DNA of 39,769 nucleotides, taken from NCBI GenBank assembly GCA_913055635.1, contig CAJXLK010000038.1, positions 1 through 39,769 of the forward strand. The letters are read 5' to 3'. The first letter of the stretch is position 1. Each line of letters starts with the position of its first letter. This stretch comes from an uncultured Bacteroidota bacterium (GTDB lineage: Bacteria > Bacteroidota > Bacteroidia > Bacteroidales > UBA12077). This document shows positions 521 through 30,119 of this stretch, one piece after another. A program made the position numbers and the translations under genes. A model generated the notes under the pieces. It did not search any database. It worked only from the letters and a program-made list of their open reading frames with translations, and was not told the origin of the DNA.

Positions 521-2575
521 TTATTTGATAAGCTTGATGCTGCGCTTGACAAACTTGTCCAGGGCTTCCCCCTTGAGCATGTTGTTGGCCAACAGGGCCA
601 GGTCAATCAGCTGCTTGACCAGCTGGCTCTTCTTACCGTATTCAGTAAGCTTTTGTTCCTTTTGGCTGTTCAGCTCATTGATCTGCTTGTCCAGATCCTG
701 GAGGTTGTCTTTATCTCCCTGCGGCATCTCTTCCTCTTTCTTATCCTTGTTGGCCTCGTTGATCCGGTCTTTCTCCTGCTGAAGGGGTTTGACCTCATTT
801 TTTATTTTGTTGAGCTCATCGCCCAGGTCATTGTTCTTGTTATTGATCATTTTCTCTATCAGCCGGTGGTTGGTGTTGACCACCAGGTTATAGGTATCGG
901 GCATCTCCCCGTAAAAGCTCATCGGGCCACCGCCCAGTTCGGCCATATCCTTCATCCGGCGCATGAATTCGGATTGGGTGATGGCCAGGGGATCCTGGTC
1001 TTCGCCCTGAGGCTCAAAGGTAACGGTGAAGGTGCCGATGTCAGGAAGCTGGCTCTTCAGTATGGTGGCCAGTTCGTCCTGGTCATCCTGTGAAAGCTGG
1101 GTTTCCTGTTTGTCCTCTTTCTGGATCAGCTTATCGATCACATCAGCATCGACCCTTGCAAAGCTGCTGTTGTCCATTTTTTGCTCCAGGAAGTTGATGA
1201 AGTGGGTATCCAGCTGACCACTTAAATCCAGTACATCATAGCCCTTGTTTTTGGCATTTTCAATGAAGGTATATTGCTTGTCCTTATCGGTGGTGTAAAG
1301 ATAGATCAGCTTGTTGTCTTTATCGGTCTGATTCTCCTTGATGTGCTCTTTATATTCCTCGAGGCTGAAGTATTTGCCTTCGGTATTTTTAAAGAGAATG
1401 AAGTTTTGCGCCCGCTCGTAGAACTTTTCATCGGTCATGGCGCCATATTCGATGAAGAGCTTCAGATCATCCCATTTGTTTTCAAACTCCTGGCGGTTGT
1501 TCTTGAATATTTCCTCCAGCCGGTCGGCCACCTTTTTAGTGATGTGGTTGGAGATCTTCTTGACATTGGGATCGCCCTGCAGATAAGTTCGGGACACATT
1601 TAACGGTATATCGGGAGAATCGAGCACCCCGTGCAACAGGGTCAGGAATTCGGGAACGATGTTTTCGACCGAATCGGTCACAAAGACCTGGTTGGCGTAT
1701 AGTTGGATCTTGTTTTTCTGGACCTCAATGTTGTTTCGGATCTTCGGGAAATAGAGCACCCCTTCCAGGTTAAACGGATAATCCACATTCAGGTGGATAT
1801 GGAAGAGGGGATCCTCGGCCATGGGGTAGAGTTTTTTATAAAACTCCTTATAATCTTCATCGGAAAGGTCAGTGGGTTGTTTTTTCCAGATGGGGTCGGT
1901 GTCGTTGATGATGTTCTCCTGGTCGGTCTCTACTTCCTTTCCCTGGTTTTGGTCGTATTCTGTTTTCTTGCCAAAAGCGATGGGTACGGGCAGAAACTTA
2001 CAATACTTGTCCAGGACTTCCTGTATGCGGTTGTCCTCGAGGTATTCTTCGGCATCCTTGTCGATGTGCAGAACTACATCGGTGCCGCGGTCCTCTTTTT
2101 CCGTTTCTTCTATTTGGTATTCAGGGCTTCCATCGCACACCCAGTGCACTGCTTTGGCATCTTCCTGGTAGGACTGGGTATAGATCTCCACCTTATCGGA
2201 TACCATAAAGGCCGAAAAGAAGCCTAAACCGAATTTCCCGATGATGGCACTGGGATCCTGGTATTTGTGCACAAATTCTTCTGCACTGGAAAAGGCCACA
2301 TCATTGATGTACTTATTGACTTCTTCCTGGGTCATCCCAATTCCACGGTCGGAGATGGTAACGGTTTTGTTCTCCTTATCCACTTTGACCCGGACGGTCA
2401 AATCGCCCAGTTCTTTCTCATATTCTCCAACGGAGGCGATTTTTTTCATTTTCTGAGTCGCATCCACGGCATTGGCGATGAGTTCCCTCAGAAATATTTC
2501 ATTCTCGGAGTATAGAAACTTTTTTATAATCGGAAAAATGTTCTCAGCAGTGACTCCAATTTTTCCTTTTTGCAT
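521..2575 (-). CDS. htpG: Molecular chaperone HtpG (bacterial Hsp90)
   Basis: HtpG is the cytosolic Hsp90 chaperone, an ATP-driven dimer that remodels late folding intermediates. The 684-residue product shows the GHKL ATPase domain in the first 220 residues: NEIFLRELIANAVDATQKM carries the catalytic Glu and the Mg-binding Asn, DRGIGMT is the nucleotide-binding loop, and GKFGLGFFSAFMV is the lid-proximal glycine motif. A middle domain follows (LNVSRTYLQGD is the conserved Hsp90 segment that supplies the catalytic Arg), then a charged, coiled-coil-like C-terminal region ending VKRSIKLIK. The length exceeds the 620-630 typical of proteobacterial HtpG because of an acidic linker and a charged C-terminal helix, as usual in Bacteroidota. 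It appears monocistronic, with a strong hairpin downstream at 421-459. No clear -7 box was found upstream. Confidence 0.98.
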   Translation of the reverse strand: MQKGKIGVTAENIFPIIKKFLYSENEIFLRELIANAVDATQKMKKIASVGEYEKELGDLTVRVKVDKENKTVTISDRGIGMTQEEVNKYINDVAFSSAEEFVHKYQDPSAIIGKFGLGFFSAFMVSDKVEIYTQSYQEDAKAVHWVCDGSPEYQIEETEKEDRGTDVVLHIDKDAEEYLEDNRIQEVLDKYCKFLPVPIAFGKKTEYDQNQGKEVETDQENIINDTDPIWKKQPTDLSDEDYKEFYKKLYPMAEDPLFHIHLNVDYPFNLEGVLYFPKIRNNIEVQKNKIQLYANQVFVTDSVENIVPEFLTLLHGVLDSPDIPLNVSRTYLQGDPNVKKISNHITKKVADRLEEIFKNNRQEFENKWDDLKLFIEYGAMTDEKFYERAQNFILFKNTEGKYFSLEEYKEHIKENQTDKDNKLIYLYTTDKDKQYTFIENAKNKGYDVLDLSGQLDTHFINFLEQKMDNSSFARVDADVIDKLIQKEDKQETQLSQDDQDELATILKSQLPDIGTFTVTFEPQGEDQDPLAITQSEFMRRMKDMAELGGGPMSFYGEMPDTYNLVVNTNHRLIEKMINNKNNDLGDELNKIKNEVKPLQQEKDRINEANKDKKEEEMPQGDKDNLQDLDKQINELNSQKEQKLTEYGKKSQLVKQLIDLALLANNMLKGEALDKFVKRSIKLIK

Positions 2576-2689
2576 AATTCCCTGATATTAATAGGTTTGA
2601 CATTGAATTTGATTATCCTCTATGAAACAAATGACGTGCCACCCATCGATTGCTGACAAATAGTCAGAGAAGTGGGGAGCTATTTCCCT

Positions 2690-3244
2690 TTAGGAGGGAT
2701 GATTTTTAGAGGGAGCGGAAAAAAAGCTGAAATGGACGGTGCCATATTTTCTTTGATCTGACAGGTTGGTGGTATCCGGCAGGGTCAGATGCTTGTCATG
2801 TTCTAATATGAATACCCCGCCGGGCGAGAGCAATTGGCTTTCGACGATCAGTTCGGGAAGTTGTTCTCTTCCCTCCATTTGATAGGGGGGATCGGCAAAA
2901 ATGATGTCAAATGTACCGGGATGGGCGTCAATGAAACGGAAGACATCTTTTTTGATTACTTTTAAATTGTCTATTTCCAGGGTTTTCATCACGCGGTGGA
3001 TGAATTGAATTTGGCGGGAGCCTTTTTCCACGGCCGTTACCCGGGCACATCCCCTGGAGATGAACTCAAAGCTGATGTTGCCTGTTCCGGCGAAAAGATC
3101 CAGGGCCTCGGCCCCTTGCAGTTCACATTGGTTTTCCAGGATGTTGAACAGGTTTTCCTTGGCAAAGTCGGTGGTGGGTCTTGCCGGAATTTTTCCGGAG
3201 GGCCGGAATATTCTGCCTTTATATTTGCCGCTTACTATTCGCAC
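2690..3244 (-). CDS. rsmD: 16S rRNA (guanine(966)-N2)-methyltransferase RsmD
   Basis: RsmD methylates N2 of G966 in 16S rRNA during 30S assembly, using S-adenosylmethionine. The 184-residue protein begins MRIVSGKYKGRIF, the family N-terminus. It has the SAM-binding glycine motif LDLFAGTGNISFE at about residues 48-60 and the catalytic ADPPYQ motif, typical of N-methyltransferases acting on exocyclic amines, at about 116-122. Length is normal for RsmD. Its start overlaps the end of the upstream DUF3822 gene by 10 bp, so translation is probably coupled. It is the last gene of a three-gene operon driven from the promoter at 4767-4774. Confidence 0.96.
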   Translation of the reverse strand: MRIVSGKYKGRIFRPSGKIPARPTTDFAKENLFNILENQCELQGAEALDLFAGTGNISFEFISRGCARVTAVEKGSRQIQFIHRVMKTLEIDNLKVIKKDVFRFIDAHPGTFDIIFADPPYQMEGREQLPELIVESQLLSPGGVFILEHDKHLTLPDTTNLSDQRKYGTVHFSFFSAPSKNHPS

Positions 3245-4083
3245 AGGTTGAGCCGGAATAAGTTGGTAAAATGCCGGGTTGAATCGCGGGAAAAAGTATA
3301 GCTGTAGGTAAATTCAGCTGGAGGTTTGTGGTAATGGCTTTTTTCAATGTATTGATCAATGAGCTTTTTCACCGGGGTGTTGTCCTGAGCCTGGCCGGAA
3401 AGGTGCAATTCATTGGAGCCGGCATCAAGGCTGAATTGTTTGTAGATATAAAGCAGGAAGTAGAGCATATCCTCGGGGGTGGTCCACCGAAAAGTATTGT
3501 AAAAGTGCAGTTGTTGCTTCGAGAAGACTCCTACATCCATGAATCCTTCAAAGATGGAGGCCCCCACCCATTTTTTGGACCCGGTGGCATTATCCAGGTG
3601 GTAACGCATGAACGGCAGCCCCTGGTGGTAGTAATCGATTTGGTTGAAGTGGTTTCTCAGGGCGTTGCTTAGGGGATTGGGCAGGGCAAAGACCTGATAA
3701 GCCTGAATTTCCGAGAGGTAGTTGTAGTGTATCTCATCCAACTCATCCAGGTCATGGTTGAACGTCAGGTATTTTTTCAGGTGTTCAATTTGGAAATAGC
3801 CGGCGGGGATCAGGGTTGATCGGGGGGTGTCTATCAGGGCATTGACTTTTTGGAAGCCCCCCTGCAGGTGTTCATCCCCGGCCAGGATCTGCTCTATGGC
3901 AGCGGCTTTTTGATCCAAAGTGGCTGAAGGGTCAAGGGCACGGTGTTTTAAAACCACAAATTTGCCCCGTACCTGGTCGAGTATAGAAAAAGAAAATCCA
4001 TTCAGGCTGAGCTGAATGGATAACTTATAGGCATGGGCTCTGTTGAGATCTAAGGTTTCATCAACAAAGGCAAAGTCTTTCAT
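3235..4083 (-). CDS. DUF3822 family protein
   Basis: This 282-residue soluble protein is recognised as DUF3822, a Bacteroidota family that is recurrently found next to rsmD; its biochemical role is unknown. No signal peptide or membrane segment is visible. The sequence alternates strands and helices with conserved-looking pieces such as SIQLSLNGFSFSILD near residue 23 and FRWTTPEDMLYFLLYIYKQF near 200. The overall layout recalls an actin/ASKHA-like fold in which two related halves occur, but that is inference. It begins 15 bp after the preceding gene and its 3' end overlaps rsmD by 10 bp, so a link to ribosome maturation or to rsmD expression is the best contextual guess. Confidence 0.85.
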   Translation of the reverse strand: MKDFAFVDETLDLNRAHAYKLSIQLSLNGFSFSILDQVRGKFVVLKHRALDPSATLDQKAAAIEQILAGDEHLQGGFQKVNALIDTPRSTLIPAGYFQIEHLKKYLTFNHDLDELDEIHYNYLSEIQAYQVFALPNPLSNALRNHFNQIDYYHQGLPFMRYHLDNATGSKKWVGASIFEGFMDVGVFSKQQLHFYNTFRWTTPEDMLYFLLYIYKQFSLDAGSNELHLSGQAQDNTPVKKLIDQYIEKSHYHKPPAEFTYSYTFSRDSTRHFTNLFRLNLCE

Positions 4084-4098
4084 ATCAAACAGCCTTGG

Positions 4099-4728
4099 TT
4101 ATTCCCAATTCCCCGCGTTGTTGTTGGGTTTTTCGAGGTCACCCACTTTAACACCAGGAAATTTGTTCTGCTTTTTCGACATCCTTTCATTTAGATTAAT
4201 CACCAGCTGTTTCTTCTGATCGTGCAACAGCACATCGTTGTGGACTTTTGCTTCGAAGACCTCTACGTCAACATTACCTGACTCGACGGTTTTTGCCCCC
4301 ATCTGGAAGCTGTCTTTCTCGGTATAGGGAACCCGCCATAGGTCATCGGCTTTGAAGCCTTTGCGGAACAGCGAATCCTTGATGGCCAGTTTAATCGTAT
4401 CGCGGCTGATGATGCCTTCTCTGAGGGCTTCCTGTTCAGTCATTCCGGCTTCCAGGAGGCTGTCGGGAATTCGGCCTATGGCCTTAACCACACTCAACGA
4501 GTCTTTTTTGATGAAGTTGATCAGGGTGTCAAAGCTGCCGGTAAAGTTGCCATGCTCATCCTTGTAGGCCAGCTGGGCTTTTCGGATGTCCTTCAGCTTT
4601 TGAATGGTGGCCTCATAGCGCTCTTGTTTGGTGTTTCTGAATTCAATGGGCGTTTGAATGCTTTTATACAGAGCAAACACTAACCCTATGATCACTATCG
4701 CTAAGATGATTCGCAGTGCTGTTTTCAT
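4099..4728 (-). CDS. Membrane-anchored conserved protein, pilin-like N-terminus
   Basis: I do not recognise a named family. The 209-residue product begins with one hydrophobic helix (about residues 5-23, ALRIILAIVIIGLVFALYKS), which would anchor it in the inner membrane with the rest in the periplasm. Residues 45-75 read IRKAQLAYKDEHGNFTGSFD, which resembles the helix-plus-loop start of type IV pilin/pseudopilin domains, although the G-F/E prepilin cleavage site is missing. The remainder is polar and lysine-rich and has no cysteines. It is the first gene of the operon with DUF3822 and rsmD, behind a good Bacteroidota promoter at 4767-4774. A structural prediction would show whether it is truly pilin-like. 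Confidence 0.8.
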   Translation of the reverse strand: MKTALRIILAIVIIGLVFALYKSIQTPIEFRNTKQERYEATIQKLKDIRKAQLAYKDEHGNFTGSFDTLINFIKKDSLSVVKAIGRIPDSLLEAGMTEQEALREGIISRDTIKLAIKDSLFRKGFKADDLWRVPYTEKDSFQMGAKTVESGNVDVEVFEAKVHNDVLLHDQKKQLVINLNERMSKKQNKFPGVKVGDLEKPNNNAGNWE

Positions 4729-4766
4729 TTTTTCTTTGCTTTATTTTTAATTATTTTGCCTGCTTG

Positions 4767-4774
4767 CAAATTTA
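4767..4774 (-). promoter_or_regulatory. Bacteroidota promoter -7 element for the 4728-2690 operon
   Basis: On the minus strand the sequence is TAAATTTG, an exact TAnnTTTG match, with a TTTG element 17 nt upstream. The spacing to the ATG at 4728 leaves a leader of roughly 30 nt. Confidence 0.6.
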
Positions 4775-4821
4775 AAAAAACTAATTAAAATCAAAATTTC
4801 AAACCATAAATTATTGGATGG

Positions 4822-6255
4822 ATGTTAAAAAATCATATCGTCTCCCATCTGGAGGATAACCTTTCCTATGCACCCACTACCAGCCAGCGCAAATTATTTG
4901 GGACCCTGGCCCGTTTCATGCTGGACCGCCACAAGCGCGAGGTCTTGATGATTACCGGTTATGCCGGGACGGGCAAGACCACCACGGTTAAATCGCTCAT
5001 TCAAACCCTGGCAGCTTTTAAGATAAAAAGCCTTTTAATGGCCCCTACTGGCCGTGCAGCAAAAGTTTTGAGTGCCTATTCCGGACGCCCGGCCTATACC
5101 ATCCACAAAAAAATATACCGGCAAAAGTCCTCATCGGAAGGATTTGGCGATTTCCTGCTCGATCGCAACCTTCACCAAAACACCTATTTCATTGTTGATG
5201 AGGCCTCCATGATTTCCAACCAGAGCCTGGAAGCCGCTATATTCGGAAGTGGGCGCCTGCTGGATGATTTGGTTGAATATGTCTACCAGGGCACCGGTTG
5301 TAAGTTGGTGCTCATCGGAGATAGCGCCCAGCTTCCTCCGGTGAGGATGGAGCTCAGCCCGGCACTGGACCCGGCTCAAATGGAAGGCTACGGATTGAAC
5401 GTGCGACAGGCTTTTTTGTCAGAAATATTGCGTCAAAGCGCCGAATCGGGAATCCTCTATAACGCCACCCTGATCCGCAAGCTGATCGATTCCGGCAAGG
5501 ATGAGTTCCCCCGCCTGCAAATGGAAGGTTTTCCCGATATTGAACGCGTAAGCGGTGAAGAACTGATCGAATTGCTTTCCGATACCTATGACCATTACGG
5601 GGAGGAGGAAACCGTCGTGGTCACCCGTTCCAATAAAAGGGCCAACATGTTCAATCAGGGCATCCGCAATCAAATCCTTTGGCGGGAAGAGGAACTCGCA
5701 GTGGGCGATTTTATCATGGTGGTGAAAAACAACTACTACTGGATTGATCAGGAAGAAAAACTGGATTTTATTGCCAACGGAGATATTGCTGAAATCATTA
5801 AAATCCACGGGTATCAGGAGCTTTATGGCTTTCATTTCGCCGATTTGAGGCTCCGGCTGGTCGATTATGACGATATCGAACTCGATGCTAAAATCCTGAT
5901 GGATACCATTCACGTAAATCAAGCCTCCCTTTCCCGGGAAGAAAACAAAAAGCTCTTTTACAATGTGCTGGAAGATTATCAGGATTTGACGACCAAAAAG
6001 GCACGTTACCAAAAAGTCAAGGAAAACCCTTTCTTTAATGCCCTTCAGGTTAAATTTGCCTACGCTGTGACTTGCCATAAGGCCCAGGGAGGCCAGTGGA
6101 AAGTGGTTTTCGTCGATCATGGCTACCTCAATGAGGAGATGATCAATAAGGAATTTTACCGTTGGCTCTATACCGCTTTTACCCGGGCCACCGAAAAACT
6201 TTACCTGATTAATTTTCACAAATTGTTTTTCGGGGAAGAAGACACATTTGAATGA
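4822..6255 (+). CDS. RecD/Dda-like SF1 DNA helicase (AAA_30 + UvrD_C_2)
   Basis: A 477-residue superfamily 1B helicase, probably a 5'-3' DNA translocase acting in repair or recombination. Visible motifs in order are: motif I/Walker A GYAGTGKTTT at residues 46-55; motif Ia APTGRAAKVL at 74-83; motif II/Walker B FIVDEASM at 123-130, with the catalytic Glu at 127; motif III VLIGDSAQLPP; a motif IV region VVTRSNKRANMFNQGIRNQ; and the C-terminal RecD-type motifs AVTCHKAQGGQW (motif V) and LYTAFTRATEKLYLI (motif VI, with the arginine finger). There is no RecBC partner and no N-terminal RecD2 extension, so this is a stand-alone minimal helicase of a type common in Bacteroidota. It is divergent from the rsmD operon, with 93 bp between the two starts. 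Confidence 0.93.
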   Translation: MLKNHIVSHLEDNLSYAPTTSQRKLFGTLARFMLDRHKREVLMITGYAGTGKTTTVKSLIQTLAAFKIKSLLMAPTGRAAKVLSAYSGRPAYTIHKKIYRQKSSSEGFGDFLLDRNLHQNTYFIVDEASMISNQSLEAAIFGSGRLLDDLVEYVYQGTGCKLVLIGDSAQLPPVRMELSPALDPAQMEGYGLNVRQAFLSEILRQSAESGILYNATLIRKLIDSGKDEFPRLQMEGFPDIERVSGEELIELLSDTYDHYGEEETVVVTRSNKRANMFNQGIRNQILWREEELAVGDFIMVVKNNYYWIDQEEKLDFIANGDIAEIIKIHGYQELYGFHFADLRLRLVDYDDIELDAKILMDTIHVNQASLSREENKKLFYNVLEDYQDLTTKKARYQKVKENPFFNALQVKFAYAVTCHKAQGGQWKVVFVDHGYLNEEMINKEFYRWLYTAFTRATEKLYLINFHKLFFGEEDTFE

Positions 6256-22895: not shown

Positions 22896-23738
22896 ATGTT
22901 GACCATGATCTTAAAAACCAATCTCGATGACATCCTGAGCTATTCCCTGGTCAATACTGAGAAGGTAACCATCACCGTATACAGCCTTCTGATTGCCCTG
23001 CTGATCCTTGTTACTGCCTGGTTTGTTCTGTGGATCATCAAACGGGTTTTCAAACGTACCCTTTATCACCGGGCTATTGATCCGGGGAAAGGCCATACCG
23101 TATTCCAGCTGATCAAATACATCATCTGGGTCATTGCCATTATCCTGGTGCTGGATACCCTTGGCGTGCGAATTACCCTGCTTCTGGCCGGTTCGGCTGC
23201 GCTGCTGGTGGGCATCGGCCTGGGGGTTCAACAGGTCTTTAAAGACATCATCTCCGGCATCTTCCTGCTGTTTGAGGGAAACCTCAAAGTAGGTGATGTG
23301 GTGGAACTGGATGGCATCGTAGGGATTGTAACAGAAATAGGTTTCCGTACCACCAAAATAGAAAGCCGCGACAACATCATCCTGATCATTCCCAATTCCA
23401 AGTTTATCGGAGAAAATGTGATCAACTGGAGCCACATCGAACAAAAAACCCGCTTTCATGTCAATGTGGGAGTGGCCTATGGCTCAGACGTAGAAAAGGT
23501 TAAGCGCCTGCTGCTCGAATGTGCCCATGAGCACCAGGAGATCACCCATGATCCCCAACCCTTCGTGCGTTTTCTTGACTTTGGCAATTCATCCCTTGAT
23601 TTTCAGCTCTTCTTCTGGACCGATAATGCCTTCCGGGTGGAAAACATCAAAAGCGACCTGCGTTTTGCCATTGACCGCAAATTCCGCGAAAACAACGTTA
23701 CCATTCCTTTCCCCCAACGCGATGTGCACATCAAATAA
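22896..23738 (+). CDS. MscS-family mechanosensitive ion channel
   Basis: A 280-residue small-conductance mechanosensitive channel that would release solutes on hypo-osmotic shock. Three helices are visible: one near residues 27-48 (VYSLLIALLILVTAWFVLWI), one near 70-88 (LIKYIIWVIAIILVLDTLGV) and the pore-lining helix (LLLAGSAALLVGIGLGVQQV) with its Gly/Ala packing pattern. The MscS beta domain follows (GDVVELDGIVGIVTEIGFRT, then IPNSKFIGENVINWS) and an alpha/beta C-terminal domain ending FPQRDVHIK. Length is near that of E. coli MscS (286). Starts at 22896 and 22905 are both possible. It is 142 bp downstream of cdaA on the same strand. Confidence 0.95.
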   Translation: MLTMILKTNLDDILSYSLVNTEKVTITVYSLLIALLILVTAWFVLWIIKRVFKRTLYHRAIDPGKGHTVFQLIKYIIWVIAIILVLDTLGVRITLLLAGSAALLVGIGLGVQQVFKDIISGIFLLFEGNLKVGDVVELDGIVGIVTEIGFRTTKIESRDNIILIIPNSKFIGENVINWSHIEQKTRFHVNVGVAYGSDVEKVKRLLLECAHEHQEITHDPQPFVRFLDFGNSSLDFQLFFWTDNAFRVENIKSDLRFAIDRKFRENNVTIPFPQRDVHIK

Positions 23739-23840
23739 TGGTTCCCTACCCTGGTCCACTTTTCGGATTCATTTGGATCAAGTCTTATTTGAAGCTTGTG
23801 CATCAGTATGGCACTGAATATCAATCAATTGTTGTCAGGC

Positions 23841-23910
23841 GCCTCTTCATGGAATCCCCATGCTTTATGCAGCGCCTTGTTGTGTAAATAAGGGCAAATG
23901 GTTTTCATGA
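23841..23910 (-). repeat. Dispersed palindromic repeat, copy E
   Basis: On the minus strand ATAAAGCATGGGGATTCCATG is the right arm with its flanks, followed by AAGAGGCGC as in copy A (ATGAGG). The left arm, around GAAAACCATTTGCCC, is degenerate. Confidence 0.6.
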
Positions 23911-23979
23911 AATCGGTATGAACTTAAGAATGAAGTCCTCCTGTACCTGATGCCTTGTCTTTGAAAAAAAAAATTTTAA

Positions 23980-23998
23980 AGTCCAATGATATTGGACT
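23980..23998. promoter_or_regulatory. Operator-like palindrome AGTCCAAT-GAT-ATTGGACT
   Basis: A perfect inverted repeat with 8-bp arms and a 3-bp spacer, directly upstream of an AT-rich promoter-like stretch and 137 bp before the HTH gene. Its size suits a dimeric helix-turn-helix regulator, possibly the adjacent one. Confidence 0.6.
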
Positions 23999-24134
23999 CT
24001 GTTTTTATAATTTGTATAGATAGAACTTGCTTTTACCATAAATCAATTATTAACAGGTTGTTTTCCTGGGTGCATTTTTAAGTGAGAAAAAGAACCATTA
24101 GTAAATAAAGAACAAATAAAGGAAACCTTATTTT

Positions 24135-24470
24135 ATGGGATTATTTAGGTATATAAATCGTTATCAGCAAATGGACCGTCTTATAAAACTTCAGTCTACA
24201 GGTACACCTCAGGAATTTGCTGAAAAGCTTCATATAAGTGAGAGCCATCTTTATTTTAGCCTTAAGGAGTTAAAGGATATGGGCCTGCCCATCGAATATG
24301 ACCGTAGAAAGCAAAGTTATTTATACCGCGACAAAGTAAAACTTGATATTCAGATAGCTATTGAATATATGACTACTGAAGAACGAATTTTACTCTCAGG
24401 GGGTAAAATAATGGAACAAGTTCCACAATTTTTTTATCCACTATTTTATAATCAGAGTAAGCTGGTGTAA
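24135..24470 (+). CDS. Short helix-turn-helix transcriptional regulator
   Basis: A 111-residue protein whose first 70 residues form a winged-helix/HTH_11-like domain: IKLQSTGTPQEFAEKLHISE then SHLYFSLKELKDMGLPIEYD and a wing, RRKQSYLYRDKVKLDI. I recognise this short type from Bacteroidota, where it is often found next to GG-leader peptide genes and C39 transporters, but no member's role has been established to my knowledge. The C-terminal 40 residues (AIEYMTTEERILLSGGKIME onward) match nothing and lack a WYL or other sensing domain. It is 92 bp upstream of the first peptide gene. Candidate controller of the palindrome at 23980-23998. Confidence 0.85.
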   Translation: MGLFRYINRYQQMDRLIKLQSTGTPQEFAEKLHISESHLYFSLKELKDMGLPIEYDRRKQSYLYRDKVKLDIQIAIEYMTTEERILLSGGKIMEQVPQFFYPLFYNQSKLV

Positions 24471-24562
24471 ATTGATATTAGCATACCGGTAAATGGGCCC
24501 GATCCGGATGAGAGGCCATATCCAGCCGCCTGAAGTGTTGGTTTCATCTAAAATGTGAGAAA

Positions 24563-24754
24563 ATGGAAAAGTTGAGTTTAGCGGATTATTCTGTTGCAGC
24601 ATTAAAGCCCGAAGAAGCAATAAAAATTAGCGGGGGATTTGGGATTATTCCTATAATTACATTCGCTTCGGCAATGATCTATATTTATAATAATCAGGAT
24701 GATATAGAGGAAGGCTTTGAGGAGGGCTTTATGAGCACGTATGATGGGGATTGA
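24563..24754 (+). CDS. GG-leader secreted peptide precursor 1 (bacteriocin-like)
   Basis: A 63-residue precursor. The first 25 residues, MEKLSLADYSVAALKPEEAI then KISGG, form a double-glycine leader of the Bacteroidota type with Leu-rich hydrophobic positions and EE at -9/-8. Cleavage after GG would release a 38-residue core: a hydrophobic helix (FGIIPIITFASAMIYIYN) followed by a strongly acidic tail (DDIEEGFEEGFMSTYDGD) with no Lys or Arg. There are no cysteines. Similar products are annotated as class II bacteriocin-like. It is followed by a second GG-leader gene and then by the matching transporter, so export and trimming by that transporter is the natural inference. Function (toxin, signal or adhesin) is unproven. 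Confidence 0.83.
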   Translation: MEKLSLADYSVAALKPEEAIKISGGFGIIPIITFASAMIYIYNNQDDIEEGFEEGFMSTYDGD

Positions 24755-24827
24755 GGCTGGATGTCTGTTGACCTGTCTTGGGCTTAGAACAACAATTTGA
24801 GTATTTAACCTTTAAAAATCAAACGCC

Positions 24828-25016
24828 ATGAAAAAATTGGAGATAAAAGAAGTAATGGAGATGAAAAATTGTGAATTGGTCCAGATCAGTGGAGGAAATG
24901 ATTTTCTTAGAGATGGCTTCAAGAAGTTGGGTGCATTATTTGGAAAATTATGTAGTTGGGCCTCTTTTGAAGATTCAAATAGCATAAACGAAGGTTATGT
25001 CGGGAGGGGAAGATAG
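24828..25016 (+). CDS. GG-leader secreted peptide precursor 2 (bacteriocin-like)
   Basis: A 62-residue precursor with leader MKKLEIKEVMEMKNCELVQI then SGG (23 residues). The 39-residue core begins NDFLRDGFKKLGALFGKLCS, an amphipathic, basic helix with one Cys, and continues with a polar tail ending GYVGRGR. Its charge is opposite to the acidic core of the gene upstream, which would suit a two-peptide system; that is inference. It starts 73 bp after peptide 1 and is followed by a hairpin at 25029-25057. The leader has a Leu/Ile/Val pattern before SGG like that of precursor 1, so both should be cut by the same C39 peptidase. Confidence 0.83.
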   Translation: MKKLEIKEVMEMKNCELVQISGGNDFLRDGFKKLGALFGKLCSWASFEDSNSINEGYVGRGR

Positions 25017-25028
25017 CTCTTATTTCAA

Positions 25029-25057
25029 GCCGCTGCTGTTGTTTTAACGGCAGCGGC
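25029..25057 (+). terminator. Hairpin between peptide 2 and the export genes
   Basis: GCCGCTGCTGTT (25029-25040) pairs with AACGGCAGCGGC (25046-25057) over 12 bp with one G-U pair and a 5-nt loop. No proper U-tract follows. It could partially terminate or stabilise the peptide mRNA, giving more peptide than transporter. Confidence 0.6.
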
Positions 25058-25130
25058 ACCTTTATGGTCTTGCTTATAAAATAACATAACAAATATTTTT
25101 AAAAGTTTAATTACTAAATTTTTTAATGTT

Positions 25131-25271
25131 ATGGAAGAACAAAACAACAAGTCTTATCAGGAATTGCTAAAACAGAATAAACAATTAAAGCGAACCAATT
25201 TAGTTCTGTTTGTCTATCTGATCGCTTCTTTTATTATAGTTGTTTATAATGCCTTTTTTGGTGGTGGATGA
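25131..25271 (+). CDS. 46-residue tail-anchored small membrane protein
   Basis: A short gene lying between the second peptide gene and the HlyD gene. The 46-residue product has a charged, helical N-terminus (MEEQNNKSYQELLKQNKQLK) and one hydrophobic helix (NLVLFVYLIASFIIVVYNAF) close to the C-terminus, ending FGGG. This is the arrangement of a tail-anchored protein with the N-terminus in the cytosol. I do not recognise a family. Immunity protein, transporter accessory subunit, or a third exported product are all possible; its position inside the locus favours a dedicated role. ATG at 25131 follows an A/T-rich leader, as usual in this phylum. Confidence 0.7.
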   Translation: MEEQNNKSYQELLKQNKQLKRTNLVLFVYLIASFIIVVYNAFFGGG

Positions 25272-25344
25272 CAATATAGTTGACAAAGTTCAATTATTTT
25301 AAATAAAAAAGAATAATTTTTTACCTGACAACAATTTTTGCATC

Positions 25345-26502
25345 ATGTCCCCACTTTTTCCACCGGAGATTGTAGACCGGACCACGGAAAGCCTTTTTGT
25401 GGAGCGTAAAACCCGTACTTCCATTATTTATATTATGGTAATCGTGGCGTTGCTGGTGGCCCTGGGTTCACTGCCTTTCATTGATGTTGCCATTACCAGC
25501 CAAAGCCGGGGCATCATCCGTTCGGCCAGGGAAAACAACCGCATTGCCTCACCCCATTCGGGCCGCATTGAATGGATCAGCATCCGGCCCAACCAGCCGG
25601 TAATTGCCGGTGACACACTCTTAATGCTTAATACCGACAAGTTGGATGAAGAAATGGCCTGGTACAGAAAACAAATCCAAAGGAATCAAGCCTGCATCCG
25701 GGATCTGGAACTCATCCTCAGCGATAAGGGAAAGCCCCAAACATTGCTGTATCAAACCCATTATGCCCAATACAGGGCCAACCTCAAGAAACATAACCAT
25801 GAGCGGGTGAAGGCCCGAAAAGAATTTCAAATCCACCGCCAGCTCCATCAGCAGCAGGTAATAGCCGACCGCCAAATGGAGGAGAAAAAATACTTGTATG
25901 AGCTGGCCAGTTACAATTACAAGACCTTTCGGGAAGAAACCCGGCTTAAATGGCAGAATGAATTGGAAACCTATCGGCTCAGGATGCAGGAACAACGCTC
26001 GATGATGGAGCGATTAAAACAGGAAAAGAGCCAGTATACCCTTACGGCTCCTGTCAACGGGATTATTACCGAGGCGGCCGGATTGCAGCCCGGCAACTTT
26101 GTAGCCCACAATCAGATGATCGCTGAAATTTCACCGGAAAAAGATCTGATGGTTGAATGCTACATCTCCCCGGCCGACATTGGAATGATCCGCGACAGCA
26201 TGGCAGTGCGCTTTCAGTTCGATGCTTTTAATCACAACCAGTGGGGGCTTGGAACGGGGCGGGTCCAGACCATCTCTCCCGATGTGATCACCAAAAATGA
26301 TCAGCCTGTTTTCCGGGTGCGATGCTCCCTGGCGTCCGCGGAGCTCAAACTGAACAACGGTTACATCGGCAGGTTGAAGAAAGGCATGACCCTGACGGCG
26401 CGTTTTCAGATTGCCCGGCGCAATCTGTTTCAACTGTTGTATGACAAGGTAGACAACTGGTTGAATCCTAAGTTGCAACCAATCAATCACCAATCATATT
26501 AA
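25345..26502 (+). CDS. HlyD-family periplasmic adaptor for peptide export
   Basis: A 385-residue membrane-fusion protein that would bridge the ABC exporter and an outer-membrane TolC-type channel. It has a cytosolic start, one membrane helix (SIIYIMVIVALLVALGSLPF, about 26-45), a lipoyl/biotinyl half-motif (IASPHSGRIEWISIRPNQPV), a long coiled-coil hairpin rich in Gln, Glu, Arg and Lys (about 100-230), the second lipoyl half (YTLTAPVNGIITEAAGLQPG) and a beta-barrel domain (MVECYISPADIGMIRDSMAV). The ABC transporter starts 13 bp after its stop, so they are co-expressed. No TolC gene is in the window; it must be supplied elsewhere. Confidence 0.93.
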   Translation: MSPLFPPEIVDRTTESLFVERKTRTSIIYIMVIVALLVALGSLPFIDVAITSQSRGIIRSARENNRIASPHSGRIEWISIRPNQPVIAGDTLLMLNTDKLDEEMAWYRKQIQRNQACIRDLELILSDKGKPQTLLYQTHYAQYRANLKKHNHERVKARKEFQIHRQLHQQQVIADRQMEEKKYLYELASYNYKTFREETRLKWQNELETYRLRMQEQRSMMERLKQEKSQYTLTAPVNGIITEAAGLQPGNFVAHNQMIAEISPEKDLMVECYISPADIGMIRDSMAVRFQFDAFNHNQWGLGTGRVQTISPDVITKNDQPVFRVRCSLASAELKLNNGYIGRLKKGMTLTARFQIARRNLFQLLYDKVDNWLNPKLQPINHQSY

Positions 26503-26515
26503 AAGGAAGCCAGCG

Positions 26516-28672
26516 ATGGGCATCAGGGTAAAACAAAGGGATGTAACGGATTGCGGAGCTGCCTGTCTGGCTTCCATTGCTGCTTATTACCGTTTGCGCA
26601 TCCCGGTCTCGCGGATTCGCCAAATGGCAGGAACAGATAAGAAGGGCACCAATGTTTTGGGGCTGATCCAGGCTGGTGAAAAAATGGGCATGTCGGCCAA
26701 AGGCGTTTGGGGCAAGCAGGAAAGCCTTATGCGAATTCCCCTGCCGGCGATTGCCCATGTGGTGATCGGGGAAAGGCTTCACCATTATGTGGTTATCTAT
26801 AAGGTAACACCAAAATGGCTGCAGATCATGGATCCCCGCCATGGCAAAACCGAACGCATGCCCATCAAGGAATTTATGAACATCTGGAGCAAAGCCATGG
26901 TCTTGATGGCACCCAATGAGGATTTTCGCCCGGCCAATCTGAAAGCCTCCAACCGCTCGCGGTTTTTGTTCCTGCTCAAACCCCACCGCGGCATCCTGAT
27001 GCAAGCCCTCTTCGGGGCCGTTATTTATACCATCCTGGGATTGTCAACCTCCATATACATTCAAAAGATCACCGACCACGTGCTGGTCGGCGGCAACCGA
27101 AACCTGCTCAACCTGCTGAGCATTGCCATGGTGATGATCCTGCTGTTTCAAATATTCATCGGCATCATCAAAACGATATTTATCCTTAAGACGGGACAAA
27201 AAATTGACGTGCGTCTGATCCTGGGCTATTACAAGCATTTGTTGAAGCTGCCCCAAAGGTTTTTCGATACCATGCGCGTGGGAGAACTTATCTCGCGCAT
27301 CAACGACGCGGTGAAAATCCGTCAGTTCATCAATGATACGATGATTACCCTGGTGGTGAACCTATTTATCATTGTTTTTGCCTTTGGATTGATGTTTATC
27401 TACAGTTGGAAACTGGCCCTGATCATTGCCCTGATCCTGCCCCTTTATGGGGTGGTGTATGCCATTACCAACCGGCTCAACAAAAAACAGGAACGGCGGG
27501 TGATGGTCAATGCCGCTGAAGTGGAGAGTCAACTGGTGGAATCGCTTAACGCCGTGCGCACGATCAAGCAATTTGGCCTGGAGGATTTTGCCAACTTGCG
27601 TACCGAAACCCGCTTTGTTGCCCTGCTGCGATCGGTCTACCATTCCGGGCTGAATGCGGTTTTTTCAGGCAATACCTCGGCTTTCCTCAGCCGTGGATTT
27701 ACCATCATCCTGCTTTGGGTGGGCTCCTATTTTGTGATCAACCGGCTGATCACCCCCGGAGAGTTGCTTTCTTTTTATGCCCTGATGGGCTACTTTACCG
27801 GGCCGGCTATGGCCCTGGTGGGCATGAATAAAACGATGCAGAATGCCATGATTGCCGGAGACCGGCTTTTTGAAATCATGGACCTTGAGCGGGAGGAGCA
27901 AACACCACTGATGGAGCTCGATAAGGAGATGGTGGGCGATGTGCATATGGAAAATGTTTGGTTTTCCTATGGCAACCGAACCGATGTGTTTGAGGGCATA
28001 AACCTGACCTTCAAGAAGGGAAAGATTACAGCAGTGATCGGGGAAAGCGGTTCGGGTAAGTCCACCATCACTTATCTGCTTCAAAAACTGTATCCCCTGA
28101 ATAAGGGGGGCATACGAATCGGCCAGTATGACCTGGGTGTGGTTTCTAACAAGAGCCTGCGCCGTATCATCGGGGTAGTCCCCCAACAGCTCAACATCTT
28201 TTCCGGGACCGTTGCCGATAACATTGCCATCGGGGATCCGGACCCCGATATGAAACGGTTGGTGGGGACCTGCTCTAGGCTGGGCATGTTGGATTTTATC
28301 AAAAAAATGCCCAATGGTTTTGGGACCTGGCTGGGCGCGAACGGAGCATCGCTCTCGGGAGGACAAAAGCAGCGGATAGCCATAGCCAGGGCCCTTTACC
28401 GTTGTCCGCGCATCCTGATCCTTGACGAAGCCCTCTCCAGCCTGGATTCAGAGGCAGAGGCTTATGTGCAGAAGGTGCTCAATGACCTGCGCAATCGGGG
28501 GCTCACCGTTGTGATGATCACCCATCGCCTCAGCTCACTGGCCCTGGCCGACTGGGTGGTCGTGCTGGATAAAGGAAAAGTGGCGGAACAAGGCAGCCCC
28601 CGCGATTTATATCATCACGGCGGCAAATATTATGGCATGTGGCAAAAACAATTGCCCGCGTTTTACAATTGA
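26516..28672 (+). CDS. C39-peptidase-containing ABC transporter (peptide processing and export)
   Basis: A 718-residue bifunctional transporter that cuts double-glycine leaders in the cytosol and exports the released peptide. The N-terminal C39 peptidase is intact: Gln7 in VKQRDVTDCGAACLASI, catalytic Cys13, His90 in ERLHHYVVIYK and Asp106 in IMDPRHG. A six-helix ABC membrane domain follows (about 160-450), then a nucleotide-binding domain with Walker A GESGSGKST, Q-loop VPQQLNIFSGTV, signature LSGGQKQR, Walker B ILILDEALSSLD and the H-loop ITHR. All motors and catalytic residues are present, so it should be active. It starts 13 bp after the HlyD gene. Its likely substrates are the two GG-leader peptides upstream. 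Confidence 0.96.
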   Translation: MGIRVKQRDVTDCGAACLASIAAYYRLRIPVSRIRQMAGTDKKGTNVLGLIQAGEKMGMSAKGVWGKQESLMRIPLPAIAHVVIGERLHHYVVIYKVTPKWLQIMDPRHGKTERMPIKEFMNIWSKAMVLMAPNEDFRPANLKASNRSRFLFLLKPHRGILMQALFGAVIYTILGLSTSIYIQKITDHVLVGGNRNLLNLLSIAMVMILLFQIFIGIIKTIFILKTGQKIDVRLILGYYKHLLKLPQRFFDTMRVGELISRINDAVKIRQFINDTMITLVVNLFIIVFAFGLMFIYSWKLALIIALILPLYGVVYAITNRLNKKQERRVMVNAAEVESQLVESLNAVRTIKQFGLEDFANLRTETRFVALLRSVYHSGLNAVFSGNTSAFLSRGFTIILLWVGSYFVINRLITPGELLSFYALMGYFTGPAMALVGMNKTMQNAMIAGDRLFEIMDLEREEQTPLMELDKEMVGDVHMENVWFSYGNRTDVFEGINLTFKKGKITAVIGESGSGKSTITYLLQKLYPLNKGGIRIGQYDLGVVSNKSLRRIIGVVPQQLNIFSGTVADNIAIGDPDPDMKRLVGTCSRLGMLDFIKKMPNGFGTWLGANGASLSGGQKQRIAIARALYRCPRILILDEALSSLDSEAEAYVQKVLNDLRNRGLTVVMITHRLSSLALADWVVVLDKGKVAEQGSPRDLYHHGGKYYGMWQKQLPAFYN

Positions 28673-28846
28673 ACGAACCGTTTTGCCGCACATATCAATT
28701 CATTTTCAATTTGTTGACTTAGGCCCCTTACTTATTGAATCCGGCCAATGACCTTTCCCTTTACTTCCTAAATGTTCCACTAAAAAAGCCTTTCTAGTTT
28801 TTGGCATTTTTTTTTATGTTTTTGTATCTTATTCCAAATCAATGCC

Positions 28847-29233
28847 ATGGAATCCATTCATCACTTTGAAGATTTGGAGGTGTGGAAACTGGCCCGAAAA
28901 ATTAACCGGAAGGTATATGATTATACCTCCAGGGATCCGCTTTGGCACGATTTTGCCCTGGTAGATCAATTGCGCAGGTCAGCCGGGTCGATTATGGATA
29001 ATATTTCCAGGGGCTATGAACGCGATGGCAACAAGCAATTCATTGATTACTTGTTTTTATCAAAAGCCGCATGCGGGGAGTGCCGGTCTCAGATACACCG
29101 GGCCCTGGATCAAAATTATCTGACCCAGAAAGAGTTTGACGAGCTCTATGAGCTGCTGATCCAGCAAAGCCAAAAACTCCAGGCTTTGATCCGTTACCTC
29201 AAAAAGTCCAATCCCCCCGATAGACGAACCTGA
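28847..29233 (+). CDS. Four-helix-bundle protein (S23/23S rRNA IVP family)
   Basis: A 128-residue protein of the family first found in intervening sequences of 23S rRNA and also used as the accessory protein Avd in diversity-generating retroelements. Typical pieces are HHFEDLEVWKLARKINRKVY, LVDQLRRSAGSIMDNISRGY and QFIDYLFLSKAACGECRSQI. The family forms pentameric four-helix bundles that may bind nucleic acid. Here there is no reverse transcriptase or rRNA nearby, so it is a stand-alone chromosomal copy, as is common in Bacteroidota, with unknown role. It begins 174 bp after the transporter and is likely separate. Confidence 0.92.
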   Translation: MESIHHFEDLEVWKLARKINRKVYDYTSRDPLWHDFALVDQLRRSAGSIMDNISRGYERDGNKQFIDYLFLSKAACGECRSQIHRALDQNYLTQKEFDELYELLIQQSQKLQALIRYLKKSNPPDRRT

Positions 29234-29394
29234 AGTTTTTTCATTCCACACAAAAAGGAAAGGCATTAGGAGAGGGGCATGAATCCATTCTTGCGGATGT
29301 CCGGGATTCAGCTCCCATCCACGGATTTTTACCAGGCTTGTGGATTGAATGATTTAAAGGAATAATCAATCCTGACCCCGGAGGGATTTGGCAT

Positions 29395-30048
29395 CTATTT
29401 TTTCGAAGAGTGCAGGTTAAACTTAGAAAGATCTGCTTTTGATTCCTCATTTCTCAGCAACCGGCCGATGTTTTTCTGATGGGTGATAAGGATCAAAATG
29501 GGGATCATCACCGAGAAGATGATCAGCGATTGGGCATCAAAATCGAAGACCAGGATGATCAAAAGCGGAAAAGAGATCCCGGCAATGATGGAACTTAATG
29601 AAACATAGCGGGTGCCGAAGAGGGTCAGGAAAAAGATGCCAGCCATGATCAGGGTAGGGAAGAGGCTGATGGCCAGGATGGCGCCAAAGAGTGTGGCCAC
29701 GCCCTTACCTCCTTTAAAATTGGCATATATGGGGAATATGTGTCCCAAAATGGCGGCGATACCAAGGATGAGCTGGACAGTGATCAGCGCTTCAGGGGCA
29801 GCCTGGACCAGGGTTGGATTTAGCATGGCCAGGCTGGTGGCCAGGTAACCCTTGAACAAGTCGATTATGAAAACCAGGATACCGGGCTTGGTGCCCAGTA
29901 CCCTGAAAGTATTGGTAGTTCCGGCATTGCCACTGCCGTACATTCTAACATCTATATGAAAAAATATTTTCCCGATCCACACCGATGAAGGAATAGAACC
30001 TATCAGGTAAGCTGCTGCAATCAACACGATATTCAGAGGATCAAACAT
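29395..30048 (-). CDS. plsY: Glycerol-3-phosphate acyltransferase PlsY
   Basis: PlsY transfers an acyl group from acyl-phosphate to glycerol-3-phosphate, the first step of phospholipid synthesis at the inner membrane. The 217-residue product is almost wholly hydrophobic with five or so helices. It shows the three family motifs: LIGSIPSSVWIGK near residue 16, the GSGNAGTTNTFRVLG motif near 41, and HIFPIYANFKGGKGVATLFG near 105. I chose the ATG at 30048 over 30069, since the shorter form begins directly before the first helix like other PlsY. It follows pckA on the same strand with 71 bp between. Confidence 0.95.
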   Translation of the reverse strand: MFDPLNIVLIAAAYLIGSIPSSVWIGKIFFHIDVRMYGSGNAGTTNTFRVLGTKPGILVFIIDLFKGYLATSLAMLNPTLVQAAPEALITVQLILGIAAILGHIFPIYANFKGGKGVATLFGAILAISLFPTLIMAGIFFLTLFGTRYVSLSSIIAGISFPLLIILVFDFDAQSLIIFSVMIPILILITHQKNIGRLLRNEESKADLSKFNLHSSKK

Positions 30049-30119
30049 ACACTCGGTTTTGATTTTCACTAATATAACTAATCATTGGGTCAGGAATTGT
30101 ACAAATCTAACAAATCTTT

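Follow-up and report, generated by a model that had tools for sequence, protein, structure and literature searches.

We found that a bacteriocin-like peptide export locus of an uncultured Bacteroidota bacterium (Bacteroidales, UBA12077) probably has its transcriptional regulator among the substrates of its own C39 transporter. The locus lies in a stretch of 39,769 nucleotides (nt), hereafter the window, which spans positions 1 to 39,769 of contig CAJXLK010000038.1 in assembly GCA_913055635.1. A first, sequence-only reading had recognised a compact locus for peptide export together with its matching C39 transporter, and this was right: the palindrome, the gene of a helix-turn-helix (HTH) protein, two precursor genes, the gene of a 46-amino acid (aa) protein, and the HlyD and C39 genes are all present on the + strand (Table 1), and the C39 Cys, His and Asp residues are intact. 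The same reading counted two peptides with double-glycine (GG) leaders and placed a separate regulator beside them, a division that has to be given up. The HTH protein itself has a GG (residues 89-90) that ends a leader-like stretch and precedes a 21-aa tail, its residues 79-111 being MTTEERILLSGG followed by KIMEQVPQFFYPLFYNQSKLV. Judged by its sequence, the "regulator" has the appearance of a GG precursor, the third of the locus, the window's own leader being a weak case. Proteins of this architecture are called HTH-GG below; L and G numbers denote fetched loci and genomes, and C1 is another contig of the same genome.

Table 1. Positions of the locus features in the window.
Feature	Position	Strand	Basis
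Accessory insertion between mscS (22896-23738) and plsY (29395-30069)	23739..29394	.	synteny with G004, G001, G002
Candidate operator, 8-3-8 palindrome AGTCCAATGATATTGGACT = AGTCCAAT-GAT-ATTGGACT	23980..23998	.	0.02 expected in shuffles, <=2 mismatches
Weak Bacteroidota -7-like element TATAATTTG, shortly 3' of palindrome	24006..24014	+	imperfect match to TAnnTTTG
HTH-GG protein, 111 aa: winged helix, leader-like stretch ending GG, tail	24135..24470	+	sequence, Pfam, AlphaFold2
Winged-helix domain, about residues 1-65, BirA/NiaR type	24135..24329	+	AlphaFold2, Foldseek
Putative GG leader in HTH protein, residues 79-90, MTTEERILLSGG	24369..24404	+	family pattern; own score weak
Predicted released tail, 21 aa, KIMEQVPQFFYPLFYNQSKLV	24405..24467	+	lies after GG (residues 89-90)
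P1, bacteriocin-like precursor, 63 aa, leader 25, core 38	24563..24754	+	leader VAALKPEEAIKISGG
P2, bacteriocin-like precursor, 62 aa, leader 23, core 39	24828..25016	+	leader VMEMKNCELVQISGG
46-aa single-transmembrane protein (accessory or immunity)	25131..25271	+	relatives in L099, L153, L176
HlyD-type periplasmic adaptor	25345..26502	+	PF13437 8.9e-17, PF16576 2.6e-13
C39 peptidase-ABC transporter, type A (TDCGAACLAS)	26516..28672	+	Pfam domains, aligned relatives

The HTH protein of the window matched the Pfam family HTH_11 with 25.6 bits (cut-off 25). The AlphaFold2 model, made with 58 sequences, showed a winged helix at residues 2-64 with a predicted local distance difference test score (pLDDT) of >90 over most of its length, a helix at residues 81-87 inside the leader with a pLDDT of ~66, and values <50 from residue 95 on. 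The nearest solved folds in Foldseek were NiaR and BirA (probability 0.96-1.0, E 0.07-0.1), none of them at 0.001. When the HTH alignment was run as a profile against the PDB, three antibody chains were the only matches (E 0.0015-0.0049), and these were taken as spurious.

Relatives of the HTH protein were searched in 25 genomes of the same family with the window protein as query, and 10 of these gave matches, its own genome counted. A short tail after a leader-like stretch also closes a same-genus relative (MAEDEVIHIVGG followed by IEKKSNFFAPLLYNQSEGTYFGT), and leader-like ends were also seen in further relatives (LEKNELHKVNGG and LSKNELVSTEGG, each continuing beyond the GG). At the level of the order, the HTH alignment matched at E <= 0.001 in 102 of 393 genomes, the weaker matches being mostly long proteins. 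An HTH-led sample was drawn from 80 stretches around the stronger order-level matches and the family-level matches, many of them cut by contig ends; together with the window it held 88 complete HTH proteins, 36 scored as GG-tailed and 52 not. The alignment used here (A1) contains tail columns, and this sample is therefore biased towards GG-tailed proteins, which does not apply to the transporter-led sample described below. Two proteins first scored as GG-tailed (L080 and L081) were judged spurious; they are retained in the 36 and excluded from the 33 distinct leaders. Hydrophobic residues occupy position -12 in 29, position -7 in 23 and position -4 in 26 of these 33 leaders, and none of 2000 shuffles reached any of the three counts. 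The tails have a median length of 20 residues (range 7 to 39). Furthermore, 11 of the 36 GG-scored proteins (9 loci) had a type-A transporter as their nearest C39, as against 1 of the 52 without GG (Fisher 1.6e-4, relatedness not discounted).

The transporter-led sample was obtained with an alignment of ten transporters as bait, and the best 80 of 544 confirmed stretches were kept. These include loci of Carboxylicivirga, Labilibaculum, Natronoflexus, Zobellia, Tenacibaculum, Pedobacter, Sphingobacterium, Cyclobacterium and Balneolaceae, which we take from the names to represent the orders Bacteroidales, Flavobacteriales, Cytophagales, Sphingobacteriales and Balneolales. One or more HTH relatives were found in 57 of the 80 loci, giving 63 HTH rows, and 58 of these carry GG (51) or AG (7) at 12-30 residues past the HTH domain, followed by a tail. 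Relative to the C39 gene, an HTH frame was located downstream in 38 of the 57 loci (same strand, <=200 nt), upstream in 19, which is also the arrangement of the window, and on both sides in 3. GG-peptide frames, called with a regular expression that also caught some unlikely ones, were present in 55 of the 57 loci with HTH and in 11 of the 23 without. The five HTH rows lacking [GAD]G were omitted from alignment A3, so that its "invariant" Gly is there by selection. The leaders were scored with a matrix trained on 159 cargo leaders, for which 685 GG sites in large proteins served as background: 56 of the 58 HTH leaders exceeded the 99th percentile of the background sites, and 41 exceeded that of their own pooled shuffles. 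The medians were 20.4 for cargo (the training set), 6.8 for HTH-GG, -18.1 for the shuffles and -22.4 for the background. By these scores the HTH leaders are clearly leader-like, though less so than those of the cargo. Pfam HTH_11 was matched at E <= 0.1 by 53 of the 58 HTH-GG relatives; in NCBIfam, TIGR00122 was the most frequent (20/58) and none stood out among the first 25 families, while two proteins weakly matched the class IIb bacteriocin model TIGR03949 (best 0.0099). A look for other domains before a GG in the 23 loci without HTH gave a single candidate (L129), which reads as an upstream extension of an ordinary GG peptide, the others being short frames after C39.

Several loci of the family showed individual features. 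On the single contig of L029 there are two HTH-GG genes, and several palindromes with differing half-sites precede GG peptides that contain cysteine; this may be a locus of several circuits. L046 (6465-8593 and 11788-13977) has two very similar HTH-GG genes with 39-aa tails near a C39 with the unusual active-site motif WCGLACMA. In Sinomicrobium (L151, L165), arrays of about six or seven similar glycine-/valine-rich GG peptides stand before a C39 transporter with HTH-GG, and in Pedobacter (L158, L163, L179) the HTH-GG variants end in NAG in place of GG and have similar tails ending PLLFL.

The transporter of the window is one chain with Peptidase_C39 (PF03412, 8e-33), PF00664 (9.4e-53) and PF00005 (1.2e-26) domains. 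Its residues Cys13, His90 and Asp106, which we presume to be catalytic, and Gln7 are identical in all 10 aligned relatives, and its score against TIGR01193 (bacteriocin_ABC) was 491.6, below the curated cut-off of 523.85. A locus without TolC is no obstacle to export because the genome carries 26 PF02321 matches in ~13 TolC-type genes elsewhere. A second C39-type transporter of the same genome (L193, 7136-9325) belongs to another subtype (DAMDCGPACL) with a distant HlyD, and the stretch fetched around it held no HTH relative and no convincing GG peptide.

These features suggest a mechanism in which HTH-GG, presumably as a dimer, would bind AGTCCAAT-N3-ATTGGACT before the operon, either as an activator or as a repressor. 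It would also bind the palindrome before the gene of a CPBP-like membrane protein on another contig, likely an immunity gene. HTH-GG would be recognised by the transporter through the helix of its leader, close to the C-terminus, in the way in which P1 and P2 are recognised through their leaders, and would be cut after the GG; the 21-aa tail would then pass HlyD and a TolC-type channel whose gene lies outside the locus. Transcription would in this way be coupled to export, the regulator being cut only if the exporter is present and free of cargo, and the released tail could report the export state outside the cell.

The palindrome stands upstream of the HTH gene and before a poor copy of the Bacteroidota -7 consensus TAnnTTTG. 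Its exact core GTCCAATN3ATTGGAC occurs at three places in the 393 genomes, namely the window, C1:5629 of the same genome and G403; the G403 copy falls within a lepA-like coding frame and was taken as chance. Close variants precede the HlyD gene in L096, stand between the genes of HTH-GG and P1 in L099 and follow closely on C39 in L111, and in L102 and L104 a variant at the end of the HTH gene has changes in both arms that preserve the palindrome. A scan for inverted repeats, which demanded a TAnnTTTG-like box 8-12 nt downstream and so makes this spacing no independent finding, gave 136 matches, many of them unrelated. The half-sites before GG-peptide genes were AGTCTCA, AGTCCGA, ACTCTCA, ACTGCAA, AGTGCAA and CGTGCAA. 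A palindrome class that was defined after inspecting the scan output has 34 sites <=1 kb of HTH genes, some of them surely chance, and 34 in the 4.8-fold larger remainder, as compared to 181/763 for the others (Fisher 4.6e-8); 31 of the 138 loci having an HTH gene contain a site of this class. Regulation had been left open in the sequence-only reading, and the operator-like palindromes recurring near related HTH genes now give a lead. We regard the palindrome as a candidate operator of HTH-GG, binding being suggested by the recurring sites. That it is a terminator or an RNA hairpin instead appears unlikely to us. The window copy was indeed flagged as terminator-like on both strands, and an RNA hairpin would need just such paired changes as those of L102 and L104, but other genera have similar sequences near their HTH genes, many of them upstream of GG-peptide genes and several lacking a T run behind them.

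The recurrence of these sites also bears on the idea that the winged helix is merely a large leader and the tail another exported peptide, the protein being no regulator at all. A GG site after a folded domain and tails that are short and variable like cores would fit this idea. However, more than half of the complete proteins of the HTH-led sample (52/88) are GG-less members of the same HTH family, and the enriched palindrome class was found near HTH genes in general and near GG-less ones as well (e.g. L033, L053 and L058). Because GG-less relatives with similar palindromes exist, we consider it quite improbable that the HTH domain serves as a leader and nothing more.

The second exact palindrome (C1:5629) ends ~95 nt before C1:5739-6254, the gene of a 171-aa membrane protein. 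The protein itself had no Pfam match, the cut-off of PF02517 not being reached; it is 45% identical to L096:5567-6058, which lies beside the HTH-GG locus of the sister genome and matches PF02517 at 6.5e-5, just above the cut-off. At E <= 1e-6, a search of the 393 genomes gave three further relatives. That of G238 lies at a distance of 1.2 kb from an HTH-GG gene, that of G190 next to a type-A C39 gene, an HlyD gene and GG peptides, and that of G329 next to a 38-aa HlyD-like fragment. In addition, PF02517 proteins occur in L099, L111 and L135, and a scan with a CPBP motif gave 40 matches, some of them noise, in 29 of 80 loci; all 10 of the 40 that were taken on matched PF02517. Proteins of the CPBP/Abi type can be bacteriocin immunity proteins. 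Self-protection, likewise left open before, thus has a lead in the same palindrome standing before C1:5739-6254, which we put forward as a candidate immunity gene acting in trans. Just upstream of it on C1 (L192), two closely similar 396-aa membrane proteins are encoded (2445-3635 and 4253-5443), perhaps from a duplicated gene for a glycan-lipid transferase, as guessed from the sequence.

Conservation of the tail was followed in close relatives. The tails of the window protein and the same-genus relative of L096 are identical at 9 of 19 aligned residues (FFxPLxYNQS), and those of L115 and L138 at 10 of 15, with 32 of 65 identical residues in their HTH domains; the motif SLLFY[EQ]SGR is kept in that clade. 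The ratio of nonsynonymous to synonymous substitution rates (dN/dS) of the tail over 33 close pairs was <1 in 24, >=1 in 4 and undefined in 5, few codons making it noisy. A role of the tail in signalling is from these data a reasoned suspicion. Carried further, it would give a one-protein quorum-sensing circuit, in which a transcription factor carries its own pheromone behind a C39 leader, is exported by the transporter it regulates and has operators before the cargo and immunity genes, spread over five orders; we hold this tentatively and think it rather unlikely. No receptor was identified for the tail peptide. An export checkpoint that sends no signal is quite possible, though short of probable: the leader would dock HTH-GG, the transporter would sequester or trim it, the tail would be no message and the circuit would sense the presence and load of the exporter, much as secreted regulators such as FlgM do. 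In 32 of the 33 close pairs the leaders resemble each other more than the tails do (e.g. 23/24 vs 7/12 residues in L149/L150), tail length varies several-fold, and the palindrome covers the last codons of the HTH-GG gene in several relatives (e.g. L106, L107, L110, L170), all of which would suit such a checkpoint; persistence of SLLFY[EQ]SGR across large HTH divergence and the mostly low, if noisy, tail dN/dS argue against it.

Several observations weigh against the proposal that the regulator is a substrate of its transporter. The leader of the window protein scored 0.42, which 634 of 20,000 shuffles reached, and its M-12 and L-4 fit the leader pattern, whereas R-7 does not. In the HTH-led sample, only 11 of the 36 GG-scored proteins have a type-A C39 as nearest C39. 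The sequence-only reading had named homologs of the precursors without a linked C39 transporter as a possible refutation, and for HTH-GG this has partly come about: 25 of the 36 are without a window-type C39 as nearest C39 in the fetched stretch. Two of the 36 are spurious, however, many stretches end at contig ends, and a C39 enzyme can act in trans. A tree test of the GG tail against the type-A transporter had eight supported pairs and no power, and the GG changes at least 23 times on that weakly supported tree. In the transporter-led sample, five of the 63 HTH relatives are without GG or AG and 23 of the 80 loci without an HTH relative. The reversed control 17-mer was found at 7 places in the 393 genomes vs 3 for the real pattern, and with <=2 mismatches it gave 3 matches per strand in this genome; the control being commoner, the operator argument rests on position and not on number. 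A second HTH relative, without GG, is encoded at C1:9270-9527, 3 kb from the CPBP-like gene, and could bind there. The dN of the tail is above that of the HTH domain in 32 of the 33 close pairs, and as the palindrome extends over the 3' end of HTH-GG genes, part of the tail conservation may be at the DNA level. Finally, the scores of the HTH leaders, taken together, fall between those of the background sites and those of the cargo, which slightly lowers the confidence in export of the regulator and leaves it probable. The moderately leader-like stretch of the window protein, with its score within reach of shuffling, would also suit an ordinary locus, in which a conventional small HTH regulator stands beside a class II-like bacteriocin operon and the GG is vestigial or due to chance. 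An ordinary locus is made very improbable by the 33 distinct leaders with canonical hydrophobic positions and by the GG or AG that 58 of the 63 HTH proteins in transporter-found loci carry.

To our knowledge, it is largely open how Bacteroidota regulate class II-like peptides of their own and how they withstand them. The locus resembles those of peptidase-containing ABC transporters with GG peptides of the ComA and LagD/PedD type in its C39 domain with Cys/His/Asp, transmembrane and nucleotide-binding domains, HlyD adaptor and adjacent GG-leader peptides; it differs in that the HTH regulator of the locus apparently carries a GG leader too, and in the TIGR01193 score. With the class IIb two-peptide bacteriocins (lactobin A/cerein 7B, TIGR03949) it shares paired small GG-leader peptides with a GxxxG in each core, whereas P1 and P2 gave no TIGR03949 match at E <= 1 and an HTH-GG regulator is present here. 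Secretion-coupled regulators are known in FlgM of flagella and in ExsE and LcrQ of type III secretion. As in these, a secretion machine would remove the regulator of its own genes, but here the regulator is a predicted DNA-binding protein with a putative C39 leader, the machine is an ABC exporter, and the tail alone would leave. Peptide quorum sensing with GG pheromones such as CSP and BlpC likewise involves a short hydrophobic peptide, here predicted to be GG-processed, in a bacteriocin locus; in the present case, signal and transcription factor would be one polypeptide, and neither a histidine kinase nor a response regulator is among the locus genes. In Nif11- and NHLP-type precursors a whole domain serves as leader, and the order of folded domain, GG site and core is the same; the present protein differs in that its domain is a winged helix and operator-like palindromes lie close to its gene.

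Bacteroidetocins are, in the available part of their description, GG-leader peptides of Bacteroidota with a peptidase transporter, no obvious immunity gene, at least two cysteines, and neighbouring genes for a transmembrane protein and mostly a thiol oxidoreductase (PMC6671954). The window locus also has GG-leader peptides and a peptidase transporter and no obvious immunity gene, but with no cysteine in the P1 core, one in the P2 core and no such transmembrane-protein or thiol oxidoreductase genes among the locus genes, it falls outside the definition given in that part. Surveys of graspetides (PMC8939145) and of Bacteroidales ribosomally synthesized and post-translationally modified peptides (PMC10352776) mention HTH genes near such loci, and the accessible portions of both describe none with a leader. 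Searches of open-licence PubMed Central (PMC) papers showed no description of a double-glycine-leader regulator or an HTH-GG fusion. If the proposal is true, the regulator would be both DNA-binding protein and exporter substrate and would provide a direct, testable link between export capacity and transcription that needs no kinase. An HTH-GG gene next to a transporter could also serve as a genome marker for such loci, and the palindromes suggest regulons of HTH-GG loci, one of them pointing here to the candidate immunity gene outside the locus.

The leaders of P1 and P2 both end in ISGG and have the double-glycine pattern of hydrophobic residues at -4, -7 and -12, and the leader matrix scored P1 at 8.06 and P2 at 16.75, with none of 20,000 shuffles as high for either. 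Among the fetched loci, L099 has a relative of P1 (7e-11) and a weak relative of P2 (0.0025) in the same gene order. The Pfam and NCBIfam searches returned no family for P1, P2 or the 46-aa protein, with a few chance-level matches. Relatives of the 46-aa protein were found in L099 (4e-6), L153 (9e-5) and L176 (6e-4), all three of them type-A C39 loci; with these small relatives it perhaps forms an unnamed microprotein family of such loci.

The gap between mscS and plsY is ~100 bp in G004 and ~60 bp in G001, two genomes of the same genus, and 5.7 kb in the window; in G002 a single 718-aa gene separates them. Since the export locus and the gene of an intervening-sequence-type protein (IVP) fill a gap whose flanking genes are neighbours in G004 and G001, gene order identifies the locus as an accessory insertion. 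The A+T-rich stretch reported up to ~25340 is real: G+C is 0.31-0.38 from the HTH gene through the 46-aa gene, and the low values stop about at the start of HlyD (0.50; C39 0.52; window overall 0.47). The suspicion of transfer drawn from it is supported by the mscS/plsY synteny and not by base composition, the transporter genes having host-like G+C. The IVP gene (28847-29233), between the transporter and plsY and within the insertion, encodes a stand-alone 23S rRNA intervening-sequence-type protein (PF05635, 1.3e-27).

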